In this document: positions 5,771 through 24,076 of the stretch, piece after piece
Layout: each line of letters begins with the position of its first letter
Numbering within the stretch: position 1 is the stretch's first letter
DNA from: a virus
Length of the DNA: 31,895 nt
Strand: one strand, 5' to 3'
Virus record (IMG/VR): IMGVR_UViG_3300030110_000563
Coordinates: 1 to 31,895 of that record
The notes under the pieces: model-generated
What the model was told of the DNA's origin: nothing
The model's database searches: none
What the model saw: the letters and a program-made list of their open reading frames with translations, nothing else
Translations under genes and position numbers: made by a program

Positions 5771-5968
5771 ATGGCAACGACCGTCTTTGACGTGCTGGAA
5801 GAAAAATTAACTGAGTTACAGAAACAACAGGAAGAATTCGTTAGCGGTAGTGGTGCTCAAGACTACGCCGAATATAAGGAATCGTGCGGAGTAATCCGGG
5901 GTCTAGCTACCGCACGCAGAGAAATACAAGACCTCTCGCGTACATATATGGAAGATGACGATGCCTGA
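5771..5968 (+). CDS. Small conserved coiled-coil protein
   Basis: A 65-residue protein (MATTVFDVLEEKLTELQKQQ...) that is almost entirely helical and charged, ending YMEDDDA. It resembles small proteins found beside portals in other phages, but no function is known to me. The gene lies six bases after the portal and overlaps the co-chaperonin gene by 14 bases, so it belongs to the capsid operon. An accessory role in head assembly is possible, by position only. Confidence 0.75.
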   Translation: MATTVFDVLEEKLTELQKQQEEFVSGSGAQDYAEYKESCGVIRGLATARREIQDLSRTYMEDDDA

Positions 5969-6386
5969 AGCGATTGCAACAACGGCTATTGAAGCCAAGC
6001 GAAAGAAGAAAATAGCGGAACAGGAATTTGAAAGACAAAAAGAAGTAGTCTTAGATAAACATGTTCCCAAGCCTGTTGGTTATAGGGTTATGGTGGCCTT
6101 ATCTAACGCAGAAGATACGTTTGATAGTGGTATTGCGAAAGCAAATCAAACAATCAAGGAAGAAAACATTCTCCAGATGACAGGCGTTGTCTGTGATATG
6201 GGAGATGAAGCCTATAAGGATAAAGAACGTTTCCCTAGTGGCCCGTGGTGTAAGGAAGGAGATTACGTAGTATTCCGAGCAAGCACAGGTACTAGACTTA
6301 GAGTGGGTGATGTTGAGTATCGCATTATGAATGATGACTCAATTGAAGCCGTAATTGACGATCCGAGTAAACTGACTCGTGCGTAA
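5955..6386 (+). CDS. GroES/Cpn10-like co-chaperonin
   Basis: A 143-residue protein. Residues 38-135 follow the Cpn10 order: PKPVGYRVMVAL (strand 1), a Gly/Ala/Asn/Gln/Thr-containing flexible stretch at about 56-72 where the GroEL-binding mobile loop sits, GVVCDMG (77-83), CKEGDYVVF (99-107) and VEYRIMNDDSIEAVI (120-134). An N-terminal charged helix of about 35 residues is extra compared with bacterial GroES (about 97 residues). By analogy with T4 gp31, it could replace host GroES and adapt the host GroEL to fold the coat protein. Its place between portal and scaffold genes supports a capsid-folding job. ATG 5961 is an alternative start. Confidence 0.8.
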   Translation: MTMPEAIATTAIEAKRKKKIAEQEFERQKEVVLDKHVPKPVGYRVMVALSNAEDTFDSGIAKANQTIKEENILQMTGVVCDMGDEAYKDKERFPSGPWCKEGDYVVFRASTGTRLRVGDVEYRIMNDDSIEAVIDDPSKLTRA

Positions 6387-8541: not shown

Positions 8542-9453
8542 ATGGCTATTTCAAGAGCACAACTACTCAAAGAACTCCTTCCGGGCTTAAATGCCTTATT
8601 TGGTATGGAGTATCAAAAGTATGGTGAAGAACATGCTGAGATTTTCGAGACTGAAAGCTCAGACCGTTCTTTTGAAGAAGAAACTAAGTTATCCGGTTTT
8701 GGAGCTGCCCCAGTTAAAAACGAAGGCGCTGCCATTGCTTACGATAACGCCCAAGAAGCGTTTACTGCTCGGTATAACCACGAGACAATTTCTATGGGAT
8801 TCTCAGTAACTGAAGAAGCTATTGAGGACAACCTATATGACTCTTTGTCTGCGCGGTATACCAAAGCACTAGCACGCGCAATGGCTTACACCAAGCAAGT
8901 TAAGGCTGCTACGATATTGAACAGTGCGTTCGATCCAGCAACTACTTATGGCGATGGTGTAGAGCTTTGTTCTACTGCACACCCTTTGGTGTCTGGTGGT
9001 ACTAACTCTAATGAGCCAGCTACTGGCGCTGATTTGAACGAAACTTCTTTGGAAGCTGCGGTCATTCAGATTGCTAATTGGACTGACGAGCGTGGTTTGT
9101 TAATAGCAGCCAAGCCTCGTAAGTTGGTGGTTCCTGCTGATCTTCAGTTTGTGGCAACTCGTTTGCTAGATACTGAGTTACGTGTGAACACATCTGACAA
9201 CGACATCAATGCCCTACGGCATAATGGTTCAATCCCAGAAGGTTACACAGTTAACCATTATCTGACTGACACCAATGCTTGGTTCTTGATGACTGACGTT
9301 CCAAATGGTCTTAAGCACTTTGTGCGTACACCAATGCAAACCTCAATGGATGCTGATTTCGATACTGGTAACAGTCGATATAAAGCCCGTGAGCGTTATA
9401 GCTTTGGCGTATCTGACCCATTAGGTATCTTCGGTTCCCCCGGAGCTAGCTAA
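8542..9453 (+). CDS. Major capsid protein, HK97 fold (Mu gpT-like)
   Basis: A 303-residue protein that should form the icosahedral shell. Features typical of Mu gpT-like coat proteins are present: an N-terminal helical start (LLKELLPGLNALFG), FTARYNHETISMGFSVTEEAIED (given here in part, about residues 74-97), the AKALARAM-type spine-helix region near 105-120, LVVPADLQF (about 195-203) and the C-terminal YSFGVSDPLG. No delta-domain or protease is fused, so the separate upstream scaffold likely directs assembly. AAGGAG lies 11 bases before the ATG. A strong terminator follows the stop after about 15 bases, ending the capsid transcription block. Confidence 0.9.
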   Translation: MAISRAQLLKELLPGLNALFGMEYQKYGEEHAEIFETESSDRSFEEETKLSGFGAAPVKNEGAAIAYDNAQEAFTARYNHETISMGFSVTEEAIEDNLYDSLSARYTKALARAMAYTKQVKAATILNSAFDPATTYGDGVELCSTAHPLVSGGTNSNEPATGADLNETSLEAAVIQIANWTDERGLLIAAKPRKLVVPADLQFVATRLLDTELRVNTSDNDINALRHNGSIPEGYTVNHYLTDTNAWFLMTDVPNGLKHFVRTPMQTSMDADFDTGNSRYKARERYSFGVSDPLGIFGSPGAS

Positions 9454-9459: not shown

Positions 9460-9467
9460 TTGAGAGA

Positions 9468-9493
9468 GGGGCACTTGTTGCCCCTTTTTCTTT
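9468..9493 (+). terminator. Intrinsic terminator after the coat gene
   Basis: A GGGGC / GCCCC stem (9468-9472 and 9480-9484) with a seven-base loop is followed by TTTTTCTTT. It is the only clear intrinsic terminator seen on the plus strand. It would set coat-level transcription apart from downstream genes, with read-through or the promoter just below feeding the rest. Confidence 0.85.
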
Positions 9494-9506
9494 GATATAT
9501 TATAAA
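9478..9506 (+). promoter_or_regulatory. Candidate promoter overlapping the coat terminator
   Basis: TTGCCC (9478-9483) and TATAAA (9501-9506) are exactly 17 bases apart. The -35 uses the 3' arm of the terminator stem. Initiation near 9512-9514 would place the mRNA start at the first arm of the leader fold described next. This is hexamer matching, so moderate weight only. Confidence 0.45.
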
Positions 9507-9510
9507 TCTA

Positions 9511-9560
9511 TCCTGACTGCGCTCCATTGGGGAGGCGGCAGACTTTAGCCACGACAGGAG
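9511..9560 (+). promoter_or_regulatory. Structured 5' leader that could hide the ribosome site
   Basis: TCCTG (9511-9515) is complementary to CAGGA (9555-9559), which is part of the AGGAG Shine-Dalgarno of the gene at 9567. Nested inside is a second stem CTGC/GCAG (9517-9520 with 9538-9541), extended by GC and TCC/GGA pairs with small bulges around an ATTGG loop. The outer pairing would cover the ribosome site, so the leader could control translation. I do not recognise a known riboswitch consensus in it. Confidence 0.5.
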
Positions 9561-9566
9561 AACTAT

Positions 9567-10268
9567 ATGGCTACTCATCACAATACCCCCGTGTTGTACA
9601 GCGGCTATGCGTCCGGTTACAAAGACCTTCGTGAAATGCCAATGTCAATTAACCCTGATTACTACTGCCTAGAAGACGATTTTGTCTACGAGCTAGACAC
9701 TGGTTGGACTGTTGTAAAAGACTCCGGTGCAACTGTAGCTATCGTAGCTGACACTGTAGGTGGAGAGCTTGCGATTACTTCCGCAGGTACTACCGATAAT
9801 GACGGTGGTTCTGTACAAGGCAATGAAATATTTGCTGTTGCAGCAAGCAAGAATATGTTTTTTCAGACTCGTATTAAAAATAACGATGTAGATCAATCTG
9901 ACATTTGTGTTGGTTTTACCGTTAATTTTGCTACTAATCCAGAAAACATGCTGACTGCAACAGACCGTATCGTGTTTCAAGTAGATGATGGAGATGCTTC
10001 TATTCTGTGTAAAACAGAGAAAGATGGCACTGAAACTTCTACTGATTCAGGCATTGATATGGCTGATAATACTTACGTCAAATTAGGTATTGCAGTAGCA
10101 GGTACTGGTAAAGTTGAGTTTTTTATTGACGATAAACTTGTTGCTACGCACAGTGCAAATATCCCTGATGACGAAAATCTGGCTATAGCAGCCATGAGTA
10201 TATCTGGTAGTGCATCAGGTACTCGTGCGACTACTATTGATTATTTAATGGGCGCTGGAACTCGTTAA
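9567..10268 (+). CDS. Virion protein with LamG-like beta-sandwich
   Basis: A 233-residue protein with a polar N-terminus (about 40 residues, starting MATHHNTPVLYSGYASG) followed by a Val/Thr/Asp-rich beta domain containing IVFQVDDGDASILCK and VEFFIDDKLVATHSAN, a pattern seen in laminin-G/concanavalin-like jelly rolls. These folds bind carbohydrate or act as capsid surface domains in phages. It is the first gene after the coat terminator and is read from the structured leader at 9511-9560 with AGGAG six bases before the ATG. A capsid-surface fibre or decoration protein is my inference. Confidence 0.7.
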   Translation: MATHHNTPVLYSGYASGYKDLREMPMSINPDYYCLEDDFVYELDTGWTVVKDSGATVAIVADTVGGELAITSAGTTDNDGGSVQGNEIFAVAASKNMFFQTRIKNNDVDQSDICVGFTVNFATNPENMLTATDRIVFQVDDGDASILCKTEKDGTETSTDSGIDMADNTYVKLGIAVAGTGKVEFFIDDKLVATHSANIPDDENLAIAAMSISGSASGTRATTIDYLMGAGTR

Positions 10269-12774: not shown

Positions 12775-13479
12775 ATGGCTACTTCTGGTACTGCTACATT
12801 TAACATGGATTTCACTGAAATCGCTGAAGAAGCGTGGGAACGAGCTGGGCGTGAAATGCGTTCTGGTTATGACCTACGTACTGCAAGGCGGTCTATGAAT
12901 TTGCTTACTATTGAGTGGCAAAATCGTGGGATCAATATGTGGACGATAGATGAAGGTACGGTTAATTTAGTTGCTGGAACTGCAACTTATGATTTACCCG
13001 CTGACACTATTGATTTACTAGAACATGTTATTCGTACTGGAAGTGGAAGTGTGTCTACACAAGCTGATCTTACTGTTTCTCGTATTAGCGTTTCTACTTA
13101 TGCAACAATACCGAATAAACTAAGTCAAGGTCGCCCCATACAAATCTACATAGATAGAGCGCGGGACAACCCAAAAGCAACCTTGTGGCCTGTGCCAGAT
13201 AAAGGCACTGCCGACTCTCCTACGTATATACTAAAGTATTACCGTATGAGAAGAGTTCAAGATGCGGGTAGTGGAGTGCAAACTGCGGATGTTAACTTTA
13301 GATTTTTACCTTGTTTGGTAGCGGGGTTAGCTTACTATGTAGCTATGAAAGACTCTGAACTAGCTACAAGAGTGCCTATGTTACAGGCAGAGTACGAACG
13401 TCAGTTTGATTTGGCTGCGAAGGAGGACAGAGAAAAAGCGTCTATTAACCTAGTACCATTAATACGTAATAAAGTATGA
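12775..13479 (+). CDS. Head-tail connector, P22 gp4-like
   Basis: A 234-residue protein with the hallmarks of P22 gp4/T7 gp11-type adaptors: FTEIAEEAWERAGREMRSGY (13-32), ARRSMNLLTIEWQNRGINMW (37-56), TYDLPADTIDLLEHVIR, then KYYRMRRVQDAG and a C-terminal helix with the FLPCLVAGLAYYVAMK pattern. Such proteins bind the lower face of the portal, closing the filled head and joining the tail. It is the first of a block of neck proteins. The P22-like portal agrees with a podovirus neck. Confidence 0.83.
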   Translation: MATSGTATFNMDFTEIAEEAWERAGREMRSGYDLRTARRSMNLLTIEWQNRGINMWTIDEGTVNLVAGTATYDLPADTIDLLEHVIRTGSGSVSTQADLTVSRISVSTYATIPNKLSQGRPIQIYIDRARDNPKATLWPVPDKGTADSPTYILKYYRMRRVQDAGSGVQTADVNFRFLPCLVAGLAYYVAMKDSELATRVPMLQAEYERQFDLAAKEDREKASINLVPLIRNKV

Positions 13480-14161: not shown

Positions 14162-14335
14162 ATGAAACGAGAAAGTAAAAAAGCACCTAAAGTTATAGAG
14201 TTTCCAAATGAGCCTATAGTCTATAGCCCCGGCACACAAGTTAACCAGCCTATAGATATGAAAACAAGTGGTGTAGAAACCCGTGGTAACGGTGCGGCTA
14301 CCAAAGGTACTAAAGCAAGAGGGCCAATGGCGTAG
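14162..14335 (+). CDS. Small hypothetical protein
   Basis: A 57-residue hydrophilic protein, MKRESKKAPKVIEFPNEP..., ending GVETRGNGAATKGTKARGPMA (last 21 residues, here listed in part as the repeated GAATKG and KARGPMA motifs). That tail is a recurring C-terminal motif of small phage head proteins. AGAGG lies upstream. Its TAG overlaps the GTG of the next gene, so translation is coupled. Function unknown. Confidence 0.75.
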   Translation: MKRESKKAPKVIEFPNEPIVYSPGTQVNQPIDMKTSGVETRGNGAATKGTKARGPMA

Positions 14336-14961
14336 TGAATTACACAGAGCTTAAAGCCAATATTAACGACATTTGTGAGCAAACGTTCACAGATGATCAA
14401 CTTGCTATGTTTACTAAACAGGCAGAGCAAAAAATATACACTACGGTTTCTTTACCTGCACTGCGAAAAAACCAAACAGGTTCTTTAACTAGTGGGAATA
14501 AGTATTTAACAATGCCTTCTGGTTTTTTGTACGCTTACTCTTTAGCGATTGTTAGCGGAAGTGATTACATTTATTTGCTAGATAAAGATTCTAATTTTAT
14601 GCGTGAAGCATACCCAAACCCCGCTACAACAGGAGTGCCAGTTCATTACGCTGTGTTTGATCAAAATAGTTTTATAGTAGGGCCAACTCCTAATGCTAAC
14701 TTTGATGCAGAACTACACTTTGCTTATTATCCAGAGTCTATAGTTACTGCTGGAACTACATGGTTAGGTACGGAATTTGATTCTGCGTTATTAAACGGTG
14801 CTTTAATGGAAGCGATTAGGTTTCAAAAAGGGGAGCCTGATGTTATAGCTACATATGAGAAAATGTACGTACAATCCGTAGCGTTACTTAAAAATCTTGG
14901 AGACGGAAAACTACGCGAAGATGCTTACCGTAGTGGTCAAACTAGAGCAGAGTCAATCTAA
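14335..14961 (+). CDS. Tail adaptor, SU10-type
   Basis: A 208-residue protein starting at GTG 14335. It matches the pattern I remember for SU10-type phage adaptor proteins: TELKANINDICEQTFTDDQL (4-23), QAEQKIYTTVSLPALRKNQTG, LTMPSGFLYAYSLA, FIVGPTPNANF and the C-terminal GKLREDAYRSGQTR. Such adaptors form a ring between connector and nozzle. It follows the connector gene by three genes and is joined to the next gene by a one-base overlap. Confidence 0.8.
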   Translation: MNYTELKANINDICEQTFTDDQLAMFTKQAEQKIYTTVSLPALRKNQTGSLTSGNKYLTMPSGFLYAYSLAIVSGSDYIYLLDKDSNFMREAYPNPATTGVPVHYAVFDQNSFIVGPTPNANFDAELHFAYYPESIVTAGTTWLGTEFDSALLNGALMEAIRFQKGEPDVIATYEKMYVQSVALLKNLGDGKLREDAYRSGQTRAESI

Positions 14962-18651: not shown

Positions 18652-20475
18652 ATGAAAAAGCTCCACTTCTTAGCAGGACTACCTCGGTCGGGTTCTACCG
18701 TACTTGCTGCACTCTTAAAACAACATCCTGAGTTACATACTACCGCAACGTCTGGCTTATTAGGAATCTTGACGGCGATGCTAAGAGCTTGGGAAGAGTG
18801 TGAGCCAGCGCGGATCGGTACTGATAGGATTCCTCAAGAAAAGGGCGATGCAATCAAAGCACTTTGCGAAGTCAAATGTCGGGATACAGATAAAAACATT
18901 ATTTTAAATAAAGAGAGAGGGTGGGTAAAAGCGCAAAATATACACACTATGGAAATGTCTTTGGGTTATCCCCCTAAGATTATTGCTACCGTTCGCAATG
19001 TAGAAGATTGTGTAGCGTCTATGGTACGCATTGCAAAACCTAATGAACTTTCTTCTTTTTTACGAGAATCTCCCTACGTTAAGCATATTCAAGAATCTTA
19101 TGTAGATTTGCTAAAAGCTCATCACTGGAAGAGAGAATATATTTATTATGTGGATTATGATGAGTTAAACAGTAATCCAGAAGAAACTTTACGAGGGATA
19201 GAAAAGTTTTTAGAACTTTCTCCCCATACCTATGATACGGACAATATTGATGCTACTGGCCTTCACGAAAAAGACGAAGAAGTCTGGGGCATAAAAGGGT
19301 TACATGATGTTCGTAAACAATTAAAACAAGCTATTGTTCCTTCCGCGCAAGATGTTTTACAACATCGGTACAGAGATTTTGTCCAACCTCGTTTTTGGCA
19401 AGGTGAGACAAGTTCGCGTCTTCCTATACATAAGTTAGACATGATGTTAGCGGCAGGGTTGCTTGGTAATTTAGATGAGGCAGCAAAATTAGGAGACGAA
19501 CTTGGTCGTGAAGAACCCCGTAATGACCGAGCGGCTTTTAATCGTGGATGGTATGAGTTACGTAAAGGAAAACTTTTAGACGGACACCGCCTTCTTGTAC
19601 GGGGTAGGAACGAAGATGTATTTGGTAACCCCAACCCCAGTTCGCCAGTGCCTCTTTGGGATGGAAAAAGCAAAGGTACAGTCTTGCTTAACCTTGAAGG
19701 TGGTTTAGGCGATCAGATTCACGGTGCAGGAATGGTGCGCTACATTGTAAATAAAGGTTGCGAGGTGATTGTGGCTTGCTCTCCAGAGTTAACAAGTCTT
19801 TTTCGAGATGTTCCCGGTGTCAGTGCCGTGGTTGTAACGAAAGCTGCGGGTGGTGTCGTACACGATTTTTGGGTTCCTGCTATGTCTGCCGTGATACCTC
19901 TTGAGCTACAGTATGCCGATGTTGATGGGTCACCTTATATTTCTAAGCCGCTAACTCCTCTAAATAAAAAATTACGAATAGGGCTTAGATGGCAAGGCAA
20001 TCCAAAGTTTGAACATGAGCAGCATAGGTTATTTCCAAGCAGTAAGTTGTTTGATGCAGTAAAGGATATAGAGGCAGATTTTGTATCTTTACAGCGTGAC
20101 GAGGGTTCGCAGCATAAACCAGAATGGGTAAAAGAAGTTTCACTTCAACATTGGGGCGACACTCGACACGCTATTGCAACTTGTGATTTAGTAATTACCT
20201 CATGTACTTCTGTAGCTCACCTATCAGCGGCAATGGGGGTAGATACTTGGATACTAGTCCCTATTCTTCCTTATTATTTGTGGGCAAAACCGGGAAATAA
20301 GTCGGAGTGGTACGACAGTGTTACTTTGTTTAGGCAAACGACTTATGGAAATTGGGATGAGCCTTTTGAAAAAGTAAAAGAAAATTTAGGAGATACACAT
20401 GGTTACAAAAACAGGATATTGGATTCAAGTTGTAGACGGCCAAGTGAAAGAAGTTTGGGACACCACGCCGCCTAG
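18652..20475 (+). CDS. Sulfotransferase-glycosyltransferase fusion
   Basis: A 607-residue fusion. The N-terminal sulfotransferase (about 1-225) has the PAPS 5'-phosphosulfate loop GLPRSGST (9-16) and a 3'-phosphate motif RNVEDCVASMVR (115-126). Residues 262-320 look TPR-like (LLGNLDEAAKLGDELGREEP). The C-terminal part (about 340-580) has NLEGGLGDQIHGAGMVRYIV (347-366), LRIGLRWQGNP and DLVITSCTSVAHLSAAMGV, as in GT-B glycosyltransferases of the heptosyltransferase/TPR-linked type. It could sulfate and extend the same glycan. The last 27 residues overlap the start of the next gene out of frame and look like a read-through tail. PAPS would come from the kinase at 21507. Acceptor unknown. Confidence 0.83.
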   Translation: MKKLHFLAGLPRSGSTVLAALLKQHPELHTTATSGLLGILTAMLRAWEECEPARIGTDRIPQEKGDAIKALCEVKCRDTDKNIILNKERGWVKAQNIHTMEMSLGYPPKIIATVRNVEDCVASMVRIAKPNELSSFLRESPYVKHIQESYVDLLKAHHWKREYIYYVDYDELNSNPEETLRGIEKFLELSPHTYDTDNIDATGLHEKDEEVWGIKGLHDVRKQLKQAIVPSAQDVLQHRYRDFVQPRFWQGETSSRLPIHKLDMMLAAGLLGNLDEAAKLGDELGREEPRNDRAAFNRGWYELRKGKLLDGHRLLVRGRNEDVFGNPNPSSPVPLWDGKSKGTVLLNLEGGLGDQIHGAGMVRYIVNKGCEVIVACSPELTSLFRDVPGVSAVVVTKAAGGVVHDFWVPAMSAVIPLELQYADVDGSPYISKPLTPLNKKLRIGLRWQGNPKFEHEQHRLFPSSKLFDAVKDIEADFVSLQRDEGSQHKPEWVKEVSLQHWGDTRHAIATCDLVITSCTSVAHLSAAMGVDTWILVPILPYYLWAKPGNKSEWYDSVTLFRQTTYGNWDEPFEKVKENLGDTHGYKNRILDSSCRRPSERSLGHHAA

Positions 20476-20812
20476 TAATCAAGAAGGTTGGCGTGAAGCA
20501 GTAGAGGTTTTTCCAGACCTTGTTGCTAACCGAGAAATGTTTACAACACATTCTTTTGACCTTGAGGCTACTCCAGCACAAATTGTGTGGGCCAAAAGAG
20601 AGCTTACAGTTGGTGAACGTAAAGGCAGTTTAGTTGCTTCAGCAAACGCTGATTTTGAAATAGTAGTAAGAAGAGAGTTAGCCAAAGAAATAGATAACTA
20701 CCCTACAACTCAGTATGACGCTTCAGCCGTAGCCACCGCACAAGCAATTTATGAATCCCGTATAGATGTTATTAATGCTGCCGAAACACATGATGATGTG
20801 GATGGTTTATAG
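20399..20812 (+). CDS. Hypothetical phage protein, fibre-assembly-like
   Basis: A 137-residue protein, MVTKTGYWIQVVDGQVKEVW..., with GWREAVEVFPDLVANREMFT (29-48) and TPAQIVWAKRELT. The WREAVEVFPDL... pattern recalls small phage proteins near tail genes, but I assign no function. TTAGGAG six bases before the ATG is the best ribosome site in the region and fixes this start, although it lies 77 bases inside the preceding gene. Its TAG overlaps the GTG of the next gene. Confidence 0.72.
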   Translation: MVTKTGYWIQVVDGQVKEVWDTTPPSNQEGWREAVEVFPDLVANREMFTTHSFDLEATPAQIVWAKRELTVGERKGSLVASANADFEIVVRRELAKEIDNYPTTQYDASAVATAQAIYESRIDVINAAETHDDVDGL

Positions 20813-21510
20813 TGAATCTTTTTTTCTCTTACAATTTAGAAGTAGATTCAGCGTATATTATTCGAGTCAAAGGACTTGAGGATTCTGAGTGTAAGGCTAA
20901 AAATTGTGCAGCTTCTTGTGAACAGGTAGGACAACAATACAAATATTGGGATGCTTACAATGGCATTGACGGTGAAATACAAGCACCGGATCACCATAAC
21001 CCGATTATGGATTGCGTTAAAATCATAGACCATTACATGACAAGAGGAGAAGTTGCTTGCGCTCTTTCCCATATTTCGTTATGGGCAAAATGTGTAACAG
21101 AAGATAAGCCTTTGGTGGTCTTGGAGCATGACAGCATAATGGTGAAGCCCTATACCAAACACGCTGTTTATAATTCTATTTGTTATTTAGGAAGCCATGA
21201 ACAAGTACAACAGGGATGGGATGTGTTACCAACTCCTCCTCATGCAAGCGAAGGCCCAAATTATCATTTTATTTGTCGCGCTCATGCCTACGCTATTGAT
21301 CCTGCGGTAGCTAAAAGTATGTTGGCTTACGTTATTAAATACGGGCTTACAGGGCCGTTAGACATTTTATTAAGAGCTGATTTATTTCCTATCCATCAAA
21401 TGGGTGTTTATGCCTACAACAAATGGGATGGCGATAAATTAGATACGACCATTAAAGGGAGGCCACTAGAAGGCCGAAGCACTACCCGCAACGATGATTT
21501 GAAAATATGA
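20812..21510 (+). CDS. GT25-like glycosyltransferase
   Basis: A 232-residue protein starting at GTG 20812. It shows the GT25 pattern: a start with YIIRVKGLEDS, GEVACALSHISLW (79-91), the metal-binding PLVVLEHDSIM (100-110), YHFICRAHAYAID (151-163) and GPLDILL (181-187). GT25 enzymes transfer sugars, often galactose, onto lipooligosaccharide. It would extend a glycan that the neighbouring sulfotransferase and DXD glycosyltransferase also act on. Coupled to both neighbours by one-base and four-base overlaps. Donor and acceptor cannot be told. Confidence 0.82.
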   Translation: MNLFFSYNLEVDSAYIIRVKGLEDSECKAKNCAASCEQVGQQYKYWDAYNGIDGEIQAPDHHNPIMDCVKIIDHYMTRGEVACALSHISLWAKCVTEDKPLVVLEHDSIMVKPYTKHAVYNSICYLGSHEQVQQGWDVLPTPPHASEGPNYHFICRAHAYAIDPAVAKSMLAYVIKYGLTGPLDILLRADLFPIHQMGVYAYNKWDGDKLDTTIKGRPLEGRSTTRNDDLKI

Positions 21511-21938
21511 AAAAGTGTGTGGTGTTACTTACTGGTTTACCCAACAGCGGAAAAACAACGTTGGCTAAGTCACTTGTAGCAAAGCATGGAGGTTGTCACA
21601 TTAACGCCGATGAAGTTAGGGCGGCTTTGCACGATTGGGACTTTTCTATGGAGGGAAGGTTTAGACAGTTTAACCGGATGAAAGAAGCGGCTAATTATAA
21701 AAAAGGGTTAGTTTTTTTAGATTTCATTTGCCCTATAGACGCATGGCGTAAAAAACTAAACGCTGATTTGGTGGTTTGGATGGACACGGTGCAAATTTCT
21801 GAATACACAGATACTAACAAAATGTTTGAACGTCCTTCGCAGTATGATATGCGTGTTACTAATATAGATACTTTAGCTAAAGTAGAACATGAACTACTTT
21901 TGCATATAGGAAAAAATTTAAAAGCTAATGATTCCTAA
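21507..21938 (+). CDS. APS-kinase-like P-loop kinase
   Basis: A 143-residue kinase with the Walker A loop LTGLPNSGKTT (8-18), a NADEVRAALHDWDFSMEGR segment (33-51) that follows the APS-kinase DGDxVR...LgFS..dR pattern, and VFLDFICPIDAWRKKL (69-84), matching the FISP region with Cys in place of Ser. It is shorter than bacterial CysC (about 200), mainly at the C-terminus, where the lid is usually found. APS kinase makes PAPS from APS and ATP, the donor for the sulfotransferase two genes upstream. A related polynucleotide or nucleoside kinase is the main alternative. The catalytic state is untested. Confidence 0.68.
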   Translation: MKKCVVLLTGLPNSGKTTLAKSLVAKHGGCHINADEVRAALHDWDFSMEGRFRQFNRMKEAANYKKGLVFLDFICPIDAWRKKLNADLVVWMDTVQISEYTDTNKMFERPSQYDMRVTNIDTLAKVEHELLLHIGKNLKANDS

Positions 21939-22638
21939 AACAGTACATATGTCGTGGAAAGACAAGAGTATTCTTGAAAGTACAAATCCCTTAGTGGTGG
22001 AGGGAGTCAAAAAAGTTATTGAGCTAAACCCAAATTGGGAAGTTACTATTTATGATGATGCAGAAGTAGACGCTTACTTAAAAGAGCAATTAGAACCACA
22101 GCATTATGAATTGATCCAAGATAAACACATAGTCCAGAAAACAGACCTTTGGCGTTTAGTCAAACTGTTTATCGAAGGTGGTGTTTATATGGATATAGAT
22201 CGTTTTTGTAATACTAGCTTTGATAGCTTGTTAGAAGAAGGGGATAAGTGGGTTTTACCTATATGTAGAGACTATGATTTCTCACATGATTTTATGATGA
22301 CAGCACCTGAAAACCCAACGTATAACTATGCGGCTTCTTTGTACGTGCAAAGGTTAATAGAAGGACACGATAATATTTATTTTTTAGGGCCACAAACTTA
22401 TATGCACGCTGTTACTCAAGCACTTTGTGGAGAAATGATTGATCCAGACCCCGAGGTAGAGGTTTTTGAAAGAATTAAGCAACAAGCCAGTACTAGCGGA
22501 TTTATAAAGGTTTACGATGAAGACCCGCCATATGATACTGTTATCTATAAAAATGGTGCGCTGAAGTTAGATTGGGAAACAGAAAAACGTAAACTTTACA
22601 AAGAGTTCGGCTTAAAACATTGGACAGGCGATTGGTAA
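21928..22638 (+). CDS. GT32-like DXD glycosyltransferase
   Basis: A 236-residue protein with the start MIPKTVHMSWKDKS, KTDLWRLVKLFIEGG (71-85) and the DXD motif VYMDIDRF (Asp89/Asp91), the pattern of GT32/OCH1-like glycosyltransferases that use a metal-bound nucleotide sugar. The C-terminus ends GLKHWTGDW, similar to the usual his/trp tail. It overlaps the kinase gene by 11 bases, so it is co-translated. It probably adds another sugar in the same surface glycan pathway. Confidence 0.82.
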   Translation: MIPKTVHMSWKDKSILESTNPLVVEGVKKVIELNPNWEVTIYDDAEVDAYLKEQLEPQHYELIQDKHIVQKTDLWRLVKLFIEGGVYMDIDRFCNTSFDSLLEEGDKWVLPICRDYDFSHDFMMTAPENPTYNYAASLYVQRLIEGHDNIYFLGPQTYMHAVTQALCGEMIDPDPEVEVFERIKQQASTSGFIKVYDEDPPYDTVIYKNGALKLDWETEKRKLYKEFGLKHWTGDW

Positions 22639-22647
22639 GTATGAGTC

Positions 22648-22842
22648 ATGGTGTTATTTATCCTGATGGTTTCTATAGGTGGGCAAACAGTATCGCAGAC
22701 TTGCGAGGAAGCTCTGTGTTTTAAAGACATAGACCGTTGCCTGTATTTTGCCCAAAGGTTAAATAACCAACCCGAAGCACCCGACATTTCGGCACATTGC
22801 CGCCATATTAACGCAGATAACGAGTCGAGGTGGTACAAATGA
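22648..22842 (+). CDS. Small cysteine-rich membrane or exported protein
   Basis: A 64-residue protein with a hydrophobic N-terminus (MVLFILMVSIGGQTVSQ) followed by four cysteines in the mature part and FKDIDRCLYFAQRLNNQP, ending DNESRWYK. I recall very similar small proteins with a conserved FKD(I/V)(D/N)RCLYFA core in marine phages. The hydrophobic start may anchor it to the inner membrane or export it. It begins the probable lysis block. An ATG at 22641 opens only a 27-codon frame. Its stop overlaps the next start (ATGA). Confidence 0.72.
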   Translation: MVLFILMVSIGGQTVSQTCEEALCFKDIDRCLYFAQRLNNQPEAPDISAHCRHINADNESRWYK

Positions 22843-23327
22843 TTGGGGAAGCGATGATAGCGATTAAAGCCTTGGACAGCGCATTTGTCATGGTTCAGGG
22901 TGCGATTGCTAAAAAGAAAGAAGTGGAGGATATGGCTGGTGAAGTGGGCCGTTTCTTTACTGCTAAGAAAAAAGTTGAGGAGCATATTACAAGGGCACGT
23001 TTGGCTGGTGATGACGACATAATGATAGGAAGTGCTTTAGAGGAAGCCATTACTATTGACCAGCAGGAAGAGCGCATTGAAAAGATGATGAACAAAATAC
23101 GTGACCATTACTCACGTAAAGGACAAACCCACCGTTGGGTTAAGATCAAAGCAGAGGCCGCTAAGATTGAGAAGAAAAGAGCAGTTAAGAAGAAAGCGAA
23201 AGCGGCAGCAACCAAACAGGAAGACGCTTTAATACACGACTTAGCGGTAATGTTTGGGTGGGTGATAGGAACAGTCATAGTAATTTTTGGAGTAGTATTT
23301 TTAATATTTGGATTAGGTGCTGAGTAA
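22839..23327 (+). CDS. Coiled-coil protein with C-terminal membrane segment
   Basis: A 162-residue protein from ATG 22839, which overlaps the upstream stop by four bases; GTG 22830 is less likely. Residues 1-130 are helical and charged with KKKEVEDMAGEVGRFFTAKK and many Lys/Glu pairs; residues about 138-159 (VMFGWVIGTVIVIFGVVFLI) form one transmembrane helix. It is thus probably a tail-anchored cytoplasmic protein. Similar proteins exist in marine phage lysis regions, but neither holin nor spanin signatures are complete. It could be a structural or lysis-timing protein. Confidence 0.72.
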   Translation: MIGEAMIAIKALDSAFVMVQGAIAKKKEVEDMAGEVGRFFTAKKKVEEHITRARLAGDDDIMIGSALEEAITIDQQEERIEKMMNKIRDHYSRKGQTHRWVKIKAEAAKIEKKRAVKKKAKAAATKQEDALIHDLAVMFGWVIGTVIVIFGVVFLIFGLGAE

Positions 23328-24076
23328 TGAAACTAGACCCTGTACTACTTAATATGGCTTGCTCGTGGAGTATGAAGGCGTACGATGATGAGAACAAAAA
23401 GTCCATCAAGATAGAAAGCCGACTAACCTCTACTACTGTATATATAGCTAAACGTAAGACGATAGATGTGATTGCATTCAGGGGTACACAACAAGGCCAA
23501 GATTGGCTAACCGATGCAATGGTAGTACCCGTACCTTACGCAGGTAGGTTGTGCCACGGCGGGTTTGTAGCTGCCCATGCTTCAGTGTGGCGTAAGATTA
23601 AAAAACACCTAGATATGAAGAAACGTACACTAGTCTGTGGGCATAGTCTTGGTGGTGCGTTAGCAGAGCTAACAGCGGCTAAGTTGTGGAAGAAACACCC
23701 TAACCTCAATCTTATTACCTTTGGTAAGCCGAATACGTTCTTCAAGGGATTTAAACGCCCTATGACGTTAGATAAACAAATTTCCTGCGTGGCTGGTTCT
23801 GACATGGTGGCGCGTATACCCCGCATTTGCTATGGCCCTTCTAAGTCACAGACTATGCTGTACTTTGCCAATAGTGGGCAAGACTTTATTGATCCTACAA
23901 AAGATTTACGGGATAAAGACAGAGGTGGGTTAAAAGACCGGATTACTGACCACTTTATGGGAGGCTATAAAGAACGGTTAGAGGGGTTTTTAGATAATCA
24001 AAACGAAGAACTTAAACTTAGTGAAGAAGAAGTAAAAGAATTAAAAACACTTATTAATGAGGTTAAAGATGGTTAG
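23327..24076 (+). CDS. Class 3 lipase-like hydrolase
   Basis: A 249-residue alpha/beta hydrolase of the lipase class 3 type. VIAFRGTQQGQDWLTD (48-63) carries the oxyanion region, CGHSLGGALAELTA (104-117) holds nucleophile Ser107, and Asp159 (GSDMVARIP) and His209 (ITDHFMGGY) are in the right places for the triad. No signal peptide is seen, so holin or membrane disruption would be needed to reach the outer membrane, or it acts on cytoplasmic membrane lipids. It lies directly before the lipoprotein, holin and endolysin genes, so a lysis role is likely but inferred; hydrolysis of other esters is possible. Confidence 0.83.
   Translation: MKLDPVLLNMACSWSMKAYDDENKKSIKIESRLTSTTVYIAKRKTIDVIAFRGTQQGQDWLTDAMVVPVPYAGRLCHGGFVAAHASVWRKIKKHLDMKKRTLVCGHSLGGALAELTAAKLWKKHPNLNLITFGKPNTFFKGFKRPMTLDKQISCVAGSDMVARIPRICYGPSKSQTMLYFANSGQDFIDPTKDLRDKDRGGLKDRITDHFMGGYKERLEGFLDNQNEELKLSEEEVKELKTLINEVKDG

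Follow-up and report, generated by a model that had tools for sequence, protein, structure and literature searches.

Comparative analysis of a 31,895-nt IMG/VR virus record, analysed over its whole length and hereafter called the window, indicates that the element at positions 9511-9573 is likely to be a cis-acting, pseudoknotted 5' leader in which two helices, P1 and P3, close the Shine-Dalgarno (SD) sequence and the AUG of a capsid-decoration gene and have to open for this gene to be translated (Table 1). Comparative evidence shows the helices P1, P2 and P3, a layout that divergent relatives have in common, and the tie between the element and the gene downstream. Since P1 and P3 interleave, they make up an H-type pseudoknot over the SD sequence and the AUG. 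This knot probably gates the output of the decoration protein, presumably by lowering initiation and with the help of an opener or a stabiliser. A reading of the letters alone, made beforehand (the sequence-only reading), had described a structured leader whose outer stem holds the SD sequence of the next gene; the RNA is indeed conserved and the stem is placed as described, but the helix between linker and start codon (P3), and hence the pseudoknot, had been missed.

Table 1. Features of the leader and of its surroundings in the window
Feature	Positions	Strand	Remarks
Major capsid protein gene	8542-9453	+	Phage_capsid_4 / Mu-like_gpT, Pfam and PHROGs matches; 5' of the element
Intrinsic terminator of the capsid gene	9462-9494	+	12-pair stem 9462-9490, loop of 5, T tract; fold z -3.7
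Extended -10-like box TGATATATT	9493-9501	+	In relatives, TATA boxes gather 13-16 nt 5' of the element; RNA start expected at about 9508-9511
P1, 5' strand (U)CCUG	9511-9515	+	Covariation
Unpaired A at the P1/P2 junction	9516	+	Invariant in the leader alignment; anchor of the sequence-free descriptor
P2 hairpin, outer CTGC/GCAG and inner CTCC/GGAG	9517-9541	+	Covariation; exceeds the Rfam consensus length
Unpaired AC 3' of P2	9542-9543	+	Conserved
P3, 5' strand UAGCCA (linker)	9546-9551	+	Can pair with the gene start; no clear exception among 236 distinct elements
Unpaired GA 5' of the P1 3' strand	9553-9554	+	Invariant in the leader alignment
P1, 3' strand CAGG(A)	9555-9559	+	Holds most of the SD sequence AGGAG (9556-9560)
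Decoration/cement-type protein gene	9567-10268	+	N-terminal arm and SO2946-like ConA-lectin fold; Pfam PF22237
P3, 3' strand UGGCUA	9568-9573	+	Covers the start codon and the second codon

The coat terminator that had been placed before the leader was recovered as an intrinsic terminator. A Mu gpT-like coat gene lies 5' of the Mu-gpT-DE-type element in the window and for 233 of 241 distinct elements. Among 199 relatives, a TATA box clusters 13-16 nt 5' of the element (TATAA in 78 against 16 shuffled; TG.TATA in 43 against 4) and -35-like words show no enrichment (50 against 48). In the window, a sigma-70 promoter scan detected none. The promoter pair proposed earlier, TTGTTG (9475-9480) and TATTAT (9498-9503), does occur with its 17-base spacing; it is a weak pair, however, whose -35 half is unsupported and whose -10 half is better read as TGATATATT. 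A nucleotide search of phage records with this region gave no match, and neither the coat protein nor the decoration protein had a meaningful match in PDB sequence searches. Elsewhere in the window, two genes (12775-13479 and 14335-14961) match SU10_adaptor and are possibly duplicated head-tail adaptors; a sulfotransferase, two glycosyltransferases, an APS-kinase-like AAA protein and a class-3 lipase are encoded together at 18652-24076; and a Cpn10/GroES-like gene (5955-6386), present in cultured relatives too, lies 5' of the coat gene.

Both stems of the sequence-only reading are present at the places it gave, namely the outer stem TCCTG/CAGGA, which overlaps the SD sequence ahead of the ATG, and the inner stem CTGC (9517-9520) with GCAG (9538-9541). 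In 37 distinct homologous (type-1) leaders, the pairing of P1 and P2 reaches 96.4% of cells against 84.0% after shuffling (0 of 500 shuffles as high), the covariation score is 0.343 against 0.135, and slid versions of the two helices all collapse. The variants of P1 are matched in 40 of 40 elements (CCTG/CAGG in 31, CCTTG/CAAGG in 9, never mixed); this count covers distinct elements from loci fetched via the capsid gene, with no length filter. A test of P1 on the capsid tree was circular through its equal-length filter and was dropped for that count. Covariance analysis and folding had been named as checks on the leader, and they part ways here: homologous leaders do show compensatory changes, whereas P1 is open in the nested fold of lowest energy for 9508-9600. 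Nested energy models of this transcript, in which pseudoknots are unscored, prefer an alternative P2 plus the P3 hairpin, a fold that lacks P1 and keeps the SD sequence largely unpaired, so that the stability of P1 together with P3 is unproven for the window copy. The single-sequence fold z-scores of the leader are weak (-0.5 to -2.0).

The evidence for P3 comes from a type-1 set of 241 distinct elements. Searches with the protein sequences of the coat and decoration genes led to 160 fetched loci, and pattern scans placing no constraint on linker or gene start enlarged the set. Among 236 distinct type-1 elements, a GCC linker goes with AUGGC in 187, CCC with AUGGG in 41 and GUC with AUGAC in 1; in the other 7 (ACC/GGGU, GCC/GGGC and a linker read as CCAA ahead of GGG) pairing is still possible, with the register shifted in some. 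Over 117 sequences, P2 and P3 are 90.4% paired against 75.3% when shuffled, with a covariation of 0.385 against 0.134 (0 of 500 as high). On a coat-protein tree, linker and start change together in 12 of 12 supported independent pairs (p 0.0005), a count that may be inflated if leader and gene recombine jointly. Furthermore, the synonymous choice at Ala codon 2 tracks the P3 linker: type-1 genes use GCT in 174 cases and GCA in 6, all 6 with a UGCC linker (p 0.003), and the relatives, in which P3 mostly lies elsewhere, use GCA in 31 and GCT in 26.

The AlphaFold model of the product of the downstream gene (pLDDT 78) matches SO2946 (2a5z) and lectin/glucanase folds, and the positional homologue in phage DSL-LC04 is annotated as a cement protein. 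In the type-1 loci among L001-L415, the C-terminal parts of the downstream proteins fall into at least 19 families, all behind one short N-terminal arm (MANTTFSGPVRS-like), which suggests a cassette exchange of capsid decorations. In six loci (L105, L110, L115, L125, L126, L134), extra sequence, mostly with an open frame, splits the coat and decoration genes and the element accompanies the decoration gene; in L259 a distance of 2.7 kb separates the element from the coat gene, and the gene 5' of the element is one other than the coat gene in L180 and L207 (L135, where the coat frame ends early, was omitted from this count). Since the element goes with the decoration gene when the latter is split from the capsid gene, it is read as the cis leader of the decoration gene, and the earlier view that the leader is dedicated to the next gene, not to the capsid gene, holds at these loci with intervening genes. 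Genes inserted between the coat and decoration genes are seen in L105, L125, L126 and Caulobacter phage GB2A (L167), the one in GB2A being annotated as a homing endonuclease.

A 2017 study by Weinberg is said to have described the Mu-gpT-DE motif, which is catalogued as RF03012 in Rfam. In a search of Rfam with relaxed thresholds, this family matches 9511-9569 with 46.5 bits (E 4.7e-10), below its gathering cut-off of 49 bits; as the match sits just under this cut-off, an Rfam search of the whole window at the gathering threshold returned nothing. The window copy aligns over the full model (1-53), with P1, P2 and the consensus linker UAGCCAcGA all present, and shares the genomic place of the family. 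It differs in its longer P2, which, together with its score, makes it a variant, that is, a sub-threshold relative of RF03012. Sister loci at the same genomic place score 60.9-74.6 bits, and of 20 relatives sampled, 7 score above the cut-off. The sequence-only reading had matched the leader to no known riboswitch; no riboswitch family indeed reaches its cut-off, but the catalogued Mu-gpT-DE family had escaped it. The Rfam model ends at the AUG and marks the linker as unpaired, so it is without P3; CaCoFold finds extra covarying pairs for versions of RF03012 (PMC7657543), and P3 may be among these or not. The exact type-1 pattern had no match in bacterial genome contigs. The Roseobacter phages CRP-901/902 carry a type-1 element.

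The leaders of more distant phages, the cultured HTVC023P and DSL-LC04 among them, have the same order as type 1 (P1-A-P2-AC-P3-GA-P1'-P3'), with an extra pseudoknot, before the same kind of gene. They differ in that P1 is long and without the SD sequence and that P3 lies at or just upstream of it; over the relatives, P3 coincides with the SD sequence in 29 cases and with the start codon in 6, and in a further 22 it sits shortly before the SD sequence. In the loci tested, divergent leaders had no match in Rfam. A descriptor with free stem sequences matches 80 of 80 type-1 leaders and 67 of the 97 others; it matches about 3% of shuffled sequences and 32 of 1306 (2.5%) other RBS-preceded starts. 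In 66 of 66 divergent leaders the P2 loop pairs, over 5 bp or more, with a stretch 5' of P1 (shuffled mean 3.6). Another type of structured leader, built around a TTCG hairpin and outside the descriptor, stands before similar decoration genes in L484, L492 and L455.

Other explanations of these pairings were weighed. It is unlikely that the structure mainly guards the decoration-gene mRNA against decay at its 5' end, the overlap with the ribosome-binding site (RBS) being secondary: the TATA box fixed 13-16 nt before the element does put the 5' end at the edge of the element, but a stabiliser need neither pair with the start codon nor track synonymous codon changes, and one of the two helices, P3 or P1, touches the SD sequence or the AUG in type 1, its place in relatives being on the SD sequence or shortly before it. 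Closure of the RBS by a pseudoknot is the general principle of known H-type pseudoknot riboswitches, and a metabolite-binding riboswitch built on such a knot would fit it; this is nevertheless very improbable here, as the conserved unpaired bases (A, AC, GA) are few for a ligand pocket, the gene product is a structural protein and the preQ1-II family scores 15.2 bits against a cut-off of 47.

Rfam files RF03012 under 'Gene; sRNA' with its role unexplained, which would speak for a free small RNA acting in trans, whereas the window element reads as a cis leader. A trans-acting RNA is given next to no probability: the element runs into the SD sequence and the AUG of the next gene and accompanies this gene when it is split from the capsid gene, and the sole terminator-like site on the strand between 9000 and 10000 is the capsid terminator, which precedes the element instead of ending it. 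Finally, the complementarities could be by-products of DNA conserved for recombination between decoration-gene cassettes, as the conserved leader and arm before many C-terminal families suggest exchange. Such homology, however, predicts sequence conservation and not compensatory changes, and it is disfavoured by the covariation and by P1 of the divergent leaders, whose 58 distinct strand pairs are 100% paired against 58% when swapped, partly by construction since the helices were chosen for pairing; this origin is thus considered extremely improbable.

In the preferred reading, a gating cis leader, transcription would probably start a few bases 5' of the element from its own -10 box, past the capsid terminator. 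P1, with the P2 hairpin nested inside it, would bury the SD sequence and the P3 linker would pair with the start codon, so that the initiation site would be closed twice over; the opening of the knot would then set or switch the amount of decoration protein relative to the coat protein. In phage GP4, the cement and coat proteins are present in 540 copies each, and the cement protein of Pam1 engages the coat protein by way of an extended N-terminal loop (PMC9698820); these copy numbers and this loop motivate a stoichiometric control here, a step that we infer. A site that stayed closed for good would ill suit a decoration protein needed at high copy, so that some means of opening it would be required. 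As many unrelated protein bodies stand behind one arm, the body of the decoration protein is unlikely to be the regulator, and the best candidates are the conserved capsid protein, the common arm and the ribosome itself. It is conceivable, though doubtful for now, that Mu-gpT-DE and the leaders unmatched in Rfam form one large class of phage RNA switches on capsid-decoration genes, with a P1xP3 pseudoknot and often a second, kissing pseudoknot, through which a conserved virion protein, for example the coat protein, would link the translation of the decoration protein to capsid assembly. Mu-gpT-DE, catalogued without a known role, would thereby gain a concrete and testable mechanism, a pseudoknot on the SD sequence and start codon of a capsid-decoration gene; its reading as a free sRNA would be corrected, and it would be linked to further leaders that aquatic phages carry. 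The cultured carriers HTVC023P, CRP-901/902 and DSL-LC04 are open to experiment.

Pseudoknots in the translational control of messengers have precedents. The translational operator of Escherichia coli rpsO contains one (PMC3014915); that gene encodes a cellular ribosomal protein with a known regulator, S15, whereas the window element belongs to a phage decoration gene. In phages T4 and T2, a pseudoknot in the mRNA leader of gene 32, situated 67 nt upstream, nucleates gp32 binding and is tied to translational control of its gene, and a review of 2010 regarded this T4-type knot as possibly the sole viral pseudoknot in translational autoregulation (PMC3014915). Autoregulation of the gene 32 type, in which the product binds its own leader, is argued against here by the at least 19 C-terminal families, as far as the body of the decoration protein is concerned. 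The likeness is that of a phage leader pseudoknot tied to the translation of the gene downstream, a control that is probable for the window element; the gene 32 knot lies upstream, whereas the knot of the window itself contains the SD sequence and the AUG.
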